This document shows positions 17,358 through 20,989 of a DNA stretch of 64,000 nucleotides, one piece after another. The first letter of the stretch is position 1. Each line of letters begins with the position of its first letter. A program made the translations under genes and the position numbers. The DNA comes from Dietzia sp. JS16-p6b (GTDB taxonomy: Bacteria; Actinomycetota; Actinomycetes; Mycobacteriales; Mycobacteriaceae): positions 2,514,001-2,578,000 of the forward strand of contig NZ_CP024869.1 in assembly GCF_003052165.1 (NCBI RefSeq), given 5' to 3'. The notes below the pieces were generated by a model, which was given only the letters and a program-made list of their open reading frames with translations, was not told where the DNA came from and did not search any database.

Positions 17358-17744
17358 TCAGCGGGTCAGGTCCTTCATCATCGACCGCATCTGCGCGGAC
17401 AACTCGTCCGCCATGTCCTGAAGGCCACCAGAGATGACCTGCGCCAGCAGCGCCGGGTTCTGCGCCTCGATGACGCAGCCCCCGGATGACTCACGGACCA
17501 CGACGTTGCAGGGCAGCATCAGCGCGACCTCCTTGCTCACGTCGAACGCCTCGCCCGCGAACCCGGGATTGCAGGCGCCGAGGATCAGGACGCGCTCGAT
17601 GTCCTTGTCGATCTTCTTCTTGAGGGTCGCGGTGAGGTCGATCTCGTGGAGGATCCCGAAGCCGCGGTCGGCGAGCGCCTCGCGGGTGGCCTCCACCGCC
17701 TCGTCGAACCCCATCGCCGTGTACGTACCGATTCCGACGTCCAT
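17358..17744 (-). CDS. DUF302 domain protein
   Basis: A 128-residue DUF302 protein: MDVGIGTYTAMGFDEAVEATREALADRGFGILHEIDL, then VLILGACNPGFAGEAFDVSKEVALMLPCNVVVRES. DUF302 proteins are small alpha/beta dimers often encoded with sulfur or persulfide genes. Here it directly follows the CstR-like repressor gene on the same strand (72 bases apart) and is probably in its operon. Two Cys residues (CNPG and LPCN) are conserved family positions. The ATG at 17744 is preceded by GTGAGGAC; the longer open frame to 17801 lacks a signal. Confidence 0.83.
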   Translation of the reverse strand: MDVGIGTYTAMGFDEAVEATREALADRGFGILHEIDLTATLKKKIDKDIERVLILGACNPGFAGEAFDVSKEVALMLPCNVVVRESSGGCVIEAQNPALLAQVISGGLQDMADELSAQMRSMMKDLTR

Positions 17745-17816
17745 GTCGTAGTCCTCACGTCTGTGGTCGGGTGTCTGCGGGTGCCGGGGCCAGCATCCCA
17801 CGGTCTCTGGCCGCGG

Positions 17817-18083
17817 TCAGGCGAGCGAGAGGAAGAGTTTCTCCAATTCGGCGACCGTGATGCCGTCCTCACCGGACTCGCCGTCGGCGGCCAGGCACTC
17901 CTGGATGTTGGTGCTGATGATCTTGAATCCGGCACGGTCCAGCGCCTTGGAGACCGCGGCCAACTGCGTGACGACATCCTTGCAGGGACGCTCCTGCTCG
18001 ACCATGTCGATCACCGCGTTCAGTTGCCCCCGCGCCCGGCGCAGGCGGTTGAGCACCTGGGTCCTCGCCTCGTCGTCAGCCAT
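17817..18083 (-). CDS. CsoR/DUF156-family repressor, CstR-like
   Basis: An 88-residue four-helix repressor of the CsoR/RcnR/CstR family. The N-terminus (LNRLRRARGQLNAVIDMVEQERPC) is canonical. Copper-sensing CsoR uses a Cys-His-Cys site; here the aligned residues are Cys34, Asn59 and Cys63 (TNIQEC). The His ligand is thus missing while both Cys remain, the pattern of the persulfide-sensing CstR branch. I therefore infer a thiol/persulfide sensor rather than a copper sensor. A palindrome of the expected operator type lies 50 bases upstream, and a near-identical one precedes the thioredoxin gene at 19.9 kb. The DUF302 gene follows. Confidence 0.87.
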   Translation of the reverse strand: MADDEARTQVLNRLRRARGQLNAVIDMVEQERPCKDVVTQLAAVSKALDRAGFKIISTNIQECLAADGESGEDGITVAELEKLFLSLA

Positions 18084-18132
18084 ACCAGGCCCTCCTGCTC
18101 TCTCGCGGATGCGTGTCGATCCACGGCCCATT

Positions 18133-18148
18133 GTACCCATGGGGGTAT
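18133..18148 (-). promoter_or_regulatory. CsoR/CstR-type operator upstream of the repressor gene
   Basis: GTACCC-ATGG-GGGTAT is an inverted repeat with five paired bases per arm around a 4-base centre, the TACCC-N4-GGGTA pattern bound by CsoR/CstR family tetramers. It sits about 50 bases before the repressor gene, implying autoregulation. Compare the copy at 19964-19979. Confidence 0.7.
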
Positions 18149-18173
18149 TTCTGTCCAGTCCGGGATACGGCGA

Positions 18174-18211
18174 GGGCCCCGGCCCACCTCTGCCGAGGGG
18201 AACCGGGGCCC
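18174..18211 (-). terminator. hairpin terminator after the alcohol dehydrogenase gene
   Basis: GGGCCCCGG (18174-18182) and CCGGGGCCC (18203-18211) form a perfect 9-bp stem just past the stop codon of the alcohol dehydrogenase. There is no U-tract, which is common in high-GC actinobacteria. It separates the dehydrogenase unit from the repressor promoter. Confidence 0.5.
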
Positions 18212-18223
18212 GGGCCGAGGCGA

Positions 18224-19345
18224 TCAGTCGTCGTGGACGATGATCCCGCGGACCATGCCCTGTCCACCCGACTCCATGATCTCGTACCCCTCGTTGACCT
18301 GGTCGAGCGTGAAGCGGTGGGTGATCAGCTCGTCGAGCTTCAGTTGCTTCTCGTCCCACAGCCGCAGAATGTTGGGGATGTCGTGGAAGGCGTTGGCCGA
18401 GCCGAACAACGATCCCTTGATGACCTTCTCGTACTGCGAGACGAACAACCCCGTGAGGTTGATGGACTGGTTGTCGAGTCCGCCCATCGAGGTCAGGACC
18501 ACGACCCCACGCTTGCCCACCATGTCGGTGGCGTCGGCGGTCACCTTCGCATCGGCCACACCGATCGTGATGATGGCCTTCTCCGCCATGGCGCCCCAGG
18601 TCAGGCCCGGCAACTCGGCCTTGGCCTGCTCCACGTCTGTGTAGACGTGGGTCGCACCGAACTCCTGGGCCTTGGCCAGCTTCGACTCGTCGGTGTCGAT
18701 GGCGAGGATGAATCGCGCCCCGGCGTGCTTCGCGCCCTGGATCGCGTTGATGCCGATGCCACCGATGCCGAAGACCACCACGGTGTCCCCGGCCCGGACA
18801 TCGGCCGAGTAGACGGCGGATCCCCAGCCGGTGGTGACGCCGCAGCCCACGAGCGCCGCGACCTCGAAGGGGATCCAGTCCTGGACCTTGACCACCGAGT
18901 TCATGTTGGCGACGGTGTACTGCGAGAACGTGCCGAGGGTGCACATCGCACCCGCGGTCTCACCGTTGGCGAGGGCGAACGGGTAGCGGCCGTCGGCCAT
19001 CTCGCCGATGGTGCCGTTGAGTCCGCCGTCGCACAGGTTGGTCATGCCGCGGGCGCAGGCCGAGCACTTGCCGCAGGCCGGGATGAACGAACCCACCACG
19101 TGGTCGCCGGGCTGGACGTGGGTCACGCCCTCCCCGACCGCCTCGACGACGCCCGCACCCTCGTGCCCGCCGACGATCGGAAGACGCCCGGGCAGGTCAC
19201 CACTGGTGATGTGGAGGTCGGAATGGCACAGGCCGGCGACCTTCCACTTGACGAGCACCTCGCCGAAATTGGGACCGTCGAGCTCGGCCTCGACGATCTC
19301 GAACGGCTTGCCCAGCTCGCGGGCGATGGCGGCCTTGGTCTTCAT
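18224..19345 (-). CDS. NDMA-dependent (mycofactocin-type) alcohol dehydrogenase
   Basis: A 373-residue zinc-type medium-chain alcohol dehydrogenase. Catalytic zinc ligands are in GLCHSDLH and GGHEGAGVVEAVGEGV. The structural-zinc loop is CGKCSACARGMTNLC, and the nucleotide fold VVVFGIGGIGINAIQGAKHAGA is followed by LAIDTDESKLAKA. The overall sequence fits the Rxyl_3153/TIGR03989 family. Its NAD stays tightly bound and needs an external acceptor, and the family co-occurs with mycofactocin genes. Its place 1.6 kb from mftG supports that link. A good GGAGGGAGTCG precedes the ATG. Two KstR-like palindromes lie 40-105 bases upstream. Confidence 0.9.
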   Translation of the reverse strand: MKTKAAIARELGKPFEIVEAELDGPNFGEVLVKWKVAGLCHSDLHITSGDLPGRLPIVGGHEGAGVVEAVGEGVTHVQPGDHVVGSFIPACGKCSACARGMTNLCDGGLNGTIGEMADGRYPFALANGETAGAMCTLGTFSQYTVANMNSVVKVQDWIPFEVAALVGCGVTTGWGSAVYSADVRAGDTVVVFGIGGIGINAIQGAKHAGARFILAIDTDESKLAKAQEFGATHVYTDVEQAKAELPGLTWGAMAEKAIITIGVADAKVTADATDMVGKRGVVVLTSMGGLDNQSINLTGLFVSQYEKVIKGSLFGSANAFHDIPNILRLWDEKQLKLDELITHRFTLDQVNEGYEIMESGGQGMVRGIIVHDD

Positions 19346-19383
19346 TCGACTCCCTCCGGGCGCGACGGGGGGATCCCGCCACT

Positions 19384-19396
19384 GGAACGTGTTCTC
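19384..19396 (-). promoter_or_regulatory. KstR-like palindrome, copy 1
   Basis: The core GGAACGTGTTCTC lies about 40 bases before the alcohol dehydrogenase start. The shared core AAC-GT-GTT fits the TnnAACnnGTTnnA motif of KstR-type TetR regulators. Confidence 0.55.
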
Positions 19397-19436
19397 ATCA
19401 CGATATCCGCATTACTGGCGCGGAGCTCGCTGATTC

Positions 19437-19450
19437 GAGAACGTGTTCTT
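19437..19450 (-). promoter_or_regulatory. KstR-like palindrome, copy 2
   Basis: GAGAACGTGTTCTT contains AGAAC-GT-GTTCT with perfect 5-base arms. It is 52 bases from copy 1 (about five helical turns), so both could be bound on the same DNA face upstream of the alcohol dehydrogenase. Confidence 0.55.
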
Positions 19451-19479
19451 GCTTTGCGCCCGGACGGACGTGGCCGGAC

Positions 19480-19863
19480 TCAGGCCCGGGCGTCGCCCTG
19501 CTGTGCCTGCGCCTCTTCGACGGCCTTGCGGACCTCGTCCATGTCGAGACCCTTGATCTGCTCGACCAGGTCGTCGAGCGCCTGCTCAGGGATCGCGCCG
19601 GAATGACGGAACACGGCGATGCCCTCACGGAACGCCATGAGGGTGGGGATCGACTGGATCTGGAGCATGGCGCCAAGCTGCTGCTCCGCGTCGGTGTCGA
19701 CCTTCGCGAAGACGAGCTCGGGGTTCTTGCCGGAGACCTTCTCGAACACCGGCCCGAAAGCCTTGCACGGGCCGCACCACTCGGCCCAGAAGTCCACCAG
19801 GACGATGTCGTTGTCGGTGACGGTCTTCTCGAAGTCGGCGGTCGTGATGTCGACGGTGGTCAT
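19480..19863 (-). CDS. trxA: thioredoxin
   Basis: A 127-residue thioredoxin. Residues 1-108 are the classic fold with the redox site WCGPC (Cys30, Cys33), then FEKVSGKNPELVFAKVDTD and cis-Pro in IQSIPTLMAFREG. The C-terminal tail of about 20 residues is helical and charged (DEVRKAVEEAQAQQGD). AGGAGGGCAATCGT precedes the ATG. An ATACCC-N4-GGGTAT palindrome lies about 100 bases upstream, the same type as before the CstR-like repressor gene. This suggests the thioredoxin is induced by the same thiol or sulfide signal. Confidence 0.93.
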   Translation of the reverse strand: MTTVDITTADFEKTVTDNDIVLVDFWAEWCGPCKAFGPVFEKVSGKNPELVFAKVDTDAEQQLGAMLQIQSIPTLMAFREGIAVFRHSGAIPEQALDDLVEQIKGLDMDEVRKAVEEAQAQQGDARA

Positions 19864-19963
19864 ACGATTGCCCTCCTAGCGGGACGGGGCGACTCTCGTC
19901 CCGTCGTCTCTCGTCGCCAGCCTACGGACAGCCCGCGCCGACGACGACCTTCTCGCACGAACC

Positions 19964-19979
19964 ATACCCATGCGGGTAT
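19964..19979 (-). promoter_or_regulatory. CsoR/CstR-type operator upstream of thioredoxin
   Basis: ATACCC-ATGC-GGGTAT is a perfect inverted repeat with 6-base arms. It differs at only two positions from the copy before the CstR-like repressor gene at 18133-18148. The pair defines a candidate two-promoter regulon. Confidence 0.7.
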
Positions 19980-20975: not shown

Positions 20976-20989
20976 GGAACGTGTTCTCG
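20976..20989 (-). promoter_or_regulatory. KstR-like palindrome, copy 3
   Basis: GGAACGTGTTCTCG repeats the 12 bases GGAACGTGTTCT seen at copy 1. It lies 36 bases before the hydrolase start and 9 bases past the mftG stop codon. Confidence 0.55.

Follow-up and report, generated by a model that had tools for sequence, protein, structure and literature searches.

Staphylococcus aureus CstR, a dithiol persulfide sensor of the CsoR family set over sulfur-transfer and oxidation enzymes, comes from a different phylum than Dietzia, the actinomycete genus in which a repressor of CstR type is the concern here. Its gene, cstR, lies in a stretch of 64,000 nucleotides of Dietzia sp. JS16-p6b (NZ_CP024869.1, 2,514,001 to 2,578,000; 'the window', in whose numbering positions are given), between 17358 and 19979, together with genes for a DUF302 protein, a thioredoxin (trx) and an alcohol dehydrogenase. 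CstR is also mentioned in PMC7533328 and PMC10318464, and the former describes ScCsoR (SCO0620) of Streptomyces coelicolor. ScCsoR binds ATACC-n6-GGTAT (16 bp) before a persulfide dioxygenase (PDO) gene, is released by polysulfide through Cys37/Cys66, and controls both itself and the dioxygenase (PMC7533328). Like the Dietzia repressor, it has two cysteines with a separation of 29 residues (Cys37 and Cys66; Cys34 and Cys63 in Dietzia), an operator of this type and a PDO gene as target, in Dietzia a predicted one. An actinomycete was thus already known to have a CsoR-like repressor that senses persulfide and has such an operator; given this precedent, the regulator of Dietzia joins a known kind, and a sequence-only reading of the window, which knew of no description of a two-promoter persulfide/thiol regulon beside mycofactocin genes, named the right sort of system but drew it too narrowly. 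The circuits are nevertheless different: the described ScCsoR one consists of PDO, rhodanese, sulfite transporter and regulator (PMC7533328), whereas the predicted one of Dietzia spans five promoters at scattered places and takes in trx, DUF302 and two small Cys/His proteins (TauE and SQR were not sought in the Dietzia genome). Thioredoxin is named once in that paper, in the introduction, and DUF302 never. ScCsoR is reported not to form the tri-/tetrasulfide links of CstR (PMC7533328), so the chemistry may differ in Dietzia too.

Two further systems are relevant. Arthrobacter plasmids pA8H1, pA40H2 and pA58H2 carry a SUL module with a CsoR-family regulator, a putative sulfur dioxygenase, two rhodaneses, TauE, DUF302 and a small hypothetical protein; it is reported as a gene cluster, in passages that speak of neither operator nor regulation (PMC6305408). 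On pA8H1, as recorded in PLSDB, the regulator and a metallo-beta-lactamase (MBL)-fold gene have between them a member of the small Cys/His family considered below; it is missing from the gene table and may or may not be the small protein of the paper. TTHA1953 of Thermus thermophilus is alike in being a CsoR-family repressor of dispersed sulfur genes, with its own operator and distinct from the cell's copper CsoR; it differs in that operator, TACNNTACNNNNGTANNGTA, and in its sulfur-oxidation (Sox) targets (PMC10318464).

How, then, might the Dietzia repressor work? We hold it highly probable, from sequence comparison, that it is a CstR-type repressor of five dispersed units, acting through a palindrome with a four-base spacer (N4), induced by persulfide or polysulfide and set apart from a copper sensor whose operator has a five-base spacer (N5). 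Reduced CstR would occupy the 16-bp RTACCC-N4-GGGTAT over or near the core promoters of the five units; rising persulfides or polysulfides would modify Cys34 with the help of Cys63, and the repressor would leave the DNA. Its release would raise the repressor itself and a DUF302 dithiol protein, the induced thioredoxin would reduce persulfides to sulfide, the induced PDO-rhodanese fusion would oxidise them to sulfite, and two induced small proteins with conserved Cys and His would be suited to metal or sulfane sulfur. The cell's copper sensor, with its N5 operator, would be kept separate by one base. We infer that the repressor binds these sites, that persulfide is the signal, that the spacer discriminates, and what reaction each protein carries out; what was computed is the family and its residues, the sites and their position in the PDO promoter, conservation and recurrence of the gene set. 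The sensor is of a known kind and part of the apparent regulon has no known function; new within the literature searched are operator-marked DUF302 and small-family genes, a trx so marked in Dietzia, and the differing spacers. A local guess has become a predicted whole-genome regulon with a seemingly readable code in the genus, in which sulfur has N4 and copper N5, in one family and one cell. DUF302 and the unnamed Cys/His family, both uncharacterised, gain a concrete testable setting, and the most useful outcome is a list of actinobacterial candidates for the handling of persulfide.

The repressor (17817-18083, minus strand; 88 amino acids) belongs to PF02583, the CsoR/RcnR family, with 84.5 bits versus a cut-off of 22.8. 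It has both CsoR-site cysteines, Cys34 and Cys63, and, just as the sequence-only reading had it, Asn59; that is the CstR arrangement of the two Cys with no His ligand, and departs from the Cys-His-Cys ligands of copper CsoR and RicR in that Asn59 replaces His. Asn itself is not the defining residue it was taken to be. In the best 80 of 247 relatives, from one scan of named genomes (they are not independent, 14 being Dietzia or very near), Gly is commoner at this position (Gly 58, Asn 20, Arg 2, His 0), and Cys34 and Cys63 are each kept in all 80. The comparison favours a CstR-like, non-copper repressor, one that very likely senses reactive sulfur.

Both palindromes noticed earlier, GTACCC-N4-GGGTAT and ATACCC-N4-GGGTAT, are present as described. 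GTACCC-ATGG-GGGTAT (18133-18148, 16 bp) is the predicted cstR-DUF302 operator, 49 bases before the start codon, and the perfect 16-bp palindrome ATACCC-ATGC-GGGTAT (19964-19979) is the predicted trx operator, 100 bases before the start codon. The accompanying claim that they occur nowhere else holds for the window, where only these two are exact and the further matches all carry two mismatches (matches with at most two mismatches are not rare by chance: seven versus a mean of 3.38, with 9 of 100 shuffles reaching seven). It does not hold for the source genome (G000, one 3.72 Mb contig), which has five exact RTACCC-N4-GGGTAY sites versus one for the reversed pattern, and with this the idea of a two-promoter regulon falls. 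The five stand 47-106 bp before start codons, preceding cstR-DUF302, trx, a PDO-rhodanese gene and two paralogous genes for small Cys/His proteins, and the three operators outside the window are about 190-890 kb away. Five scattered promoters appear to be under the repressor through one short motif, and a sulfane-sulfur target as expected of a CstR, PDO-rhodanese, has a predicted operator before it in this genome and in other Dietzia.

Among 23 Dietzia genomes 22 have the exact RTACCC-N4-GGGTAY, with 111 sites versus 19 for the reversed pattern. Gene context was checked for 75 listed sites of G000-G016 (three of the nine G016 sites; G007 has none). There, 48 of 54 ATACCC-N4-GGGTAT sites are within 0-200 bp before a PDO, cstR, small-protein or trx gene (PDO 12, PDO with divergent cstR 4, cstR 1, small protein 19, trx 12), sites with one G/C end are before cstR in 11 of 12 cases, and GTACCC-N4-GGGTAC sites are before these gene kinds in 0 of 9. 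With G000 excluded (15 genomes) the first two counts become 44/50 and 10/11. In 12 of 14 named Dietzia-type loci the cstR operator keeps 11 of its 12 half-site bases (10 and 9 in the other two); of the 13 named loci with a trx gene, 11 have its operator equally far from the gene, 11 or 12 of the 12 bases matching. Further afield, 56 of the 80 relatives have an N4 palindrome in the 200 bp upstream of cstR, versus 2 of 80 for a downstream control, and spacers N2, N3, N5, N6 and N7 were found upstream of cstR in none of the 80.

Dietzia has two types of CstR, as typed by hand from the listed matches. Of the 23 genomes, 18 have the window type (75-100% identical) and 12 have another (56-62%); no genome lacks both types, and seven carry the two together. 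The second is divergent from PDO in at least eight of its 12 genomes (G004, G005, G007, G010, G011, G016, G021, G022). Since G000 has only the first type yet has a site before PDO, the window repressor probably acts there in trans.

The position of the operator relative to promoter-like elements bears on how repression might be achieved. At PDO a TTGnnn-17 bp-TAnnnT arrangement has the operator as its spacer in 17/17 distinct Dietzia contexts, compared with 0.11 expected from shuffled flanks, by a rule chosen after the contexts were viewed. From this placement, the case for the predicted steric repression is good at PDO and weaker at trx. By reading, the outer bases of the window cstR operator form part of a -10-like TACAAT, and the mixed G/C end of cstR operators in Dietzia contexts is read as due to their outer bases belonging to a -10-like TACACT or TACAAT.

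The genome has only one other CsoR-family gene, for a C-H-C CsoR (L091:4065-4352), beside an open reading frame (ORF) called copA-like P-type ATPase from a reading of the sequence without family search. Before it stands GTACC-CCCCTAG-GGTAC, which is N5. In all 15 Dietzia genomes considered, its own and 14 others, TACC-N7-GGTA (N5 when the half-sites are taken as CCC/GGG) is at most 150 bp upstream of copper csoR, with full half-sites in 13 and one base off in L279 and L284; N3, N4 and N6 forms are within that distance in none of the 15. The copper csoR gene of G022 is only 58% identical to that of this genome. RTACC-N7-GGTAY occurs five times in the source genome (control 4), with full CCC/GGG half-sites only at csoR. 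The window repressor gene lacks this N5 operator and copA pairing, its own operator being N4.

Could the window repressor nevertheless be a copper sensor of CsoR/RicR kind that lacks its His and still induces Cu-detoxifying thiol proteins, the small proteins being metallothioneins? RicR is its best NCBIfam match (E 1.2e-09), the small proteins are Cys-rich, and the 16-bp ScCsoR site has been called highly similar to sites of a copper CsoR and RicR (PMC7533328). However, that match amounts to 38.6 bits versus the RicR cut-off of 175, the His ligand is absent from all 80 relatives, the same cell has its C-H-C CsoR beside a copA-like ORF and with its own N5 operator, and the targets include PDO-rhodanese, with TauE, DsrE and an SQR-like gene as neighbours in relatives; this copper alternative we consider quite unlikely.

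A number of points weigh against a persulfide regulon read from the N4 motif and its spacer. G000 is no independent test, because its own sites were what pointed to the gene kinds found outside the window, and with up to two mismatches allowed its genome has 44 places versus 13 for the control, scrutiny having covered the five exact ones. Six ATACCC-N4-GGGTAT sites have none of these gene kinds nearby, two of the 13 named loci no longer have the trx site, the 350 bp upstream hold no exact site in 23 of the 80 relatives, and G007 has cstR, PDO, trx and small protein yet no exact site. One motif is common to the two CstR types that some Dietzia have, which makes the assignment of protein to site ambiguous outside G000. 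The TTGnnn/TAnnnT rule fits the small protein in 8/22 contexts (0.12 expected), trx in 0/11 and cstR in 0/16. Finally, as PMC7533328 likens its site to copper CsoR/RicR sites, the N4/N5 split may be lineage-local.

Several other sites resembling the operator deserve mention. One-mismatch sites of the source genome are at G000:C1:1770007 and G000:C1:2714322. In G007 there is only a loose site, ATACCCCCCTAGGTAT, before PDO (L273-L275), a natural test case of whether the code decays or drifts. In 10 of the 14 named loci (L013, L014, L016, L018-L024) the cstR operator is followed, 31-32 bp downstream, by a weaker second copy (e.g. GGACCCACGGGGGTCT); none was seen in the window. In G003:C23 and G006:C99 (L187, L196) divergent ORFs, one of them read as methyltransferase-like, flank N4 palindromes and may be extra targets. 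An MmpL-like transporter is divergent from PDO across the operator (L008:2660-5164 minus, operator 5296), an arrangement present in six Dietzia genomes (L008, L179, L202, L214, L218, L228), and with similar genes at operators in Nocardia loci L026, L027 and L030 it is a candidate target.

What of the predicted target proteins? The DUF302 gene (17358-17744, minus strand, the ATG at 17744 being the chosen start) is the second gene, after cstR, and its product matches PF03625 with 72 bits versus a cut-off of 23. With the window sequence included, its cysteines are all but invariant, that of GACNP in 62/62 and that of LPCNV in 61/62, and both are also in two solved relatives of unassigned function, 1j3m and 1q9u; on these grounds a dithiol role is plausible. 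A further predicted target is a 464-amino-acid protein with an MBL domain and two rhodanese domains, read as a PDO-rhodanese of the CstB kind. Thioredoxin (19480-19863, minus strand) has a WCGPC active site and a C-terminal extension, and exceeds the TIGR01068 cut-off (106.1 versus 96.8 bits); thioredoxins reduce persulfides (PMC6196236, PMC9952706). The link between DUF302 and thioredoxin that had been put forward is supported, in sequence, by their matching operators and by the kept distance of that of trx, and is further backed by the same-genome operator before the PDO-rhodanese gene.

The two small Cys/His paralogues of the source genome, of 53 and 44 amino acids, have the pattern MC-x4-C-x2-C-x7-C-x2-H-x13-C. 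For a family match E 0.01 or better in Pfam or NCBIfam, or a solved relative, was required, and no usable family emerged: the best Pfam E values are 0.17 and 0.18, NCBIfam gave none and E 0.1, and the best hit of a PDB profile search is a cerato-platanin-like protein at E 0.027. In 19 sequences gathered by similarity alone, not by the Cys/His pattern, C2, C7, C10, T14, W15, G17, C18, G19, H21, V25, V29 and C35 are invariant; an AlphaFold2 model has middling confidence. The protein, of roughly 40-65 amino acids, is present in 23/23 Dietzia genomes and in 64 of 396 genomes sampled across the actinobacterial phylum, a count that may be low because scoring took in no more than 16 first-look candidates from each genome. 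In 29 of the 64 a CsoR-family match to the window repressor (counted down to E 8.6e-14) is no more than 5 kb from the small-protein gene; 45 have such a match anywhere and 19 have none among the matches listed.

Around cstR in the 80 relatives' loci the neighbours include DUF302, PDO-like proteins, the small protein and trx. Mycobacterium L050 has, in order, cstR, an Rv2466c-like protein (PF22234), the small protein and an SQR/FCSD-like flavoprotein that scores below the SQR model cut-off. The small protein is held by 69 plasmid records, and the four viewed all have TauE, rhodanese and MBL-fold genes, with DUF302 in three and trxA and DsrE in two each; a 'metal-sensitive' (CsoR-type) regulator is in three, none being annotated in the Rhodococcus erythropolis stretch. 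It is a tentative idea, and one we rate as somewhat doubtful, that the small protein is an unnamed actinobacterial family handling sulfane sulfur, which would form with DUF302 a persulfide-relay module of a kind not reported for CstR systems in the literature surveyed. As an example, it might be a zinc-thiolate carrier or sink passing persulfide sulfur to dioxygenase or thioredoxin. The dithiol site, the thioredoxin in the regulon and the Rv2466c-like mycothiol-dependent protein between cstR and small protein in L050 would also fit a general sensor of thiol oxidation or electrophiles, with disulfide or nitric oxide stress and not persulfide as the signal. That is very unlikely, as PDO-rhodanese, TauE, DsrE and SQR-like partners indicate sulfane sulfur, and the nearest tested relative answers to polysulfide (PMC7533328).

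In minus-strand order the locus reads trx operator, trx, alcohol dehydrogenase, cstR operator, cstR, DUF302. The dehydrogenase (18224-19345, minus strand), which is N,N-dimethyl-4-nitrosoaniline (NDMA)-dependent, of mycofactocin type and above the TIGR03989 cut-off, thus lies between trx and cstR, and MftF, MftD, MftC, MftR and a mycofactocin-coupled short-chain dehydrogenase/reductase, each above its NCBIfam cut-off, are at 22-29 kb of the window. A formaldehyde sensor of FrmR type, tied to the adjoining dehydrogenase and the mycofactocin genes, might be thought of, as the dehydrogenase stands between both operators and the repressor matches the FrmR model at E 1.8e-08. We find it hardly credible: the match has 34.7 bits versus a cut-off of 133, the dehydrogenase is preceded by other palindromes, and the other three operator-marked genes are for sulfur or cysteine proteins far from mft. 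The sequence-only reading had placed the regulon beside mycofactocin genes; these are indeed near, but a special tie does not follow, with three operators so far off and the dehydrogenase having palindromes of its own (relatives' loci were not searched for mft genes), and the neighbourhood is probably incidental. The nearest N4 palindrome upstream of the dehydrogenase is the trx operator, 618 bases away, and read-through from trx may reach it. Because the dehydrogenase, with its own palindromes, sits between trx and cstR, 17358-19979 need not be one unit. Those palindromes are two exact copies of GAACGTGTTC (19385-19394 and 19439-19448), probably belonging to a regulator other than CstR, under which the dehydrogenase would probably be, and perhaps constituting a TetR-type operator. 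With at most one mismatch GAACGTGTTC occurs 12 times in the window versus 2.99 expected, 0 of 100 shuffles reaching 12; three are exact, the third (20977-20986) being before an alpha/beta hydrolase.

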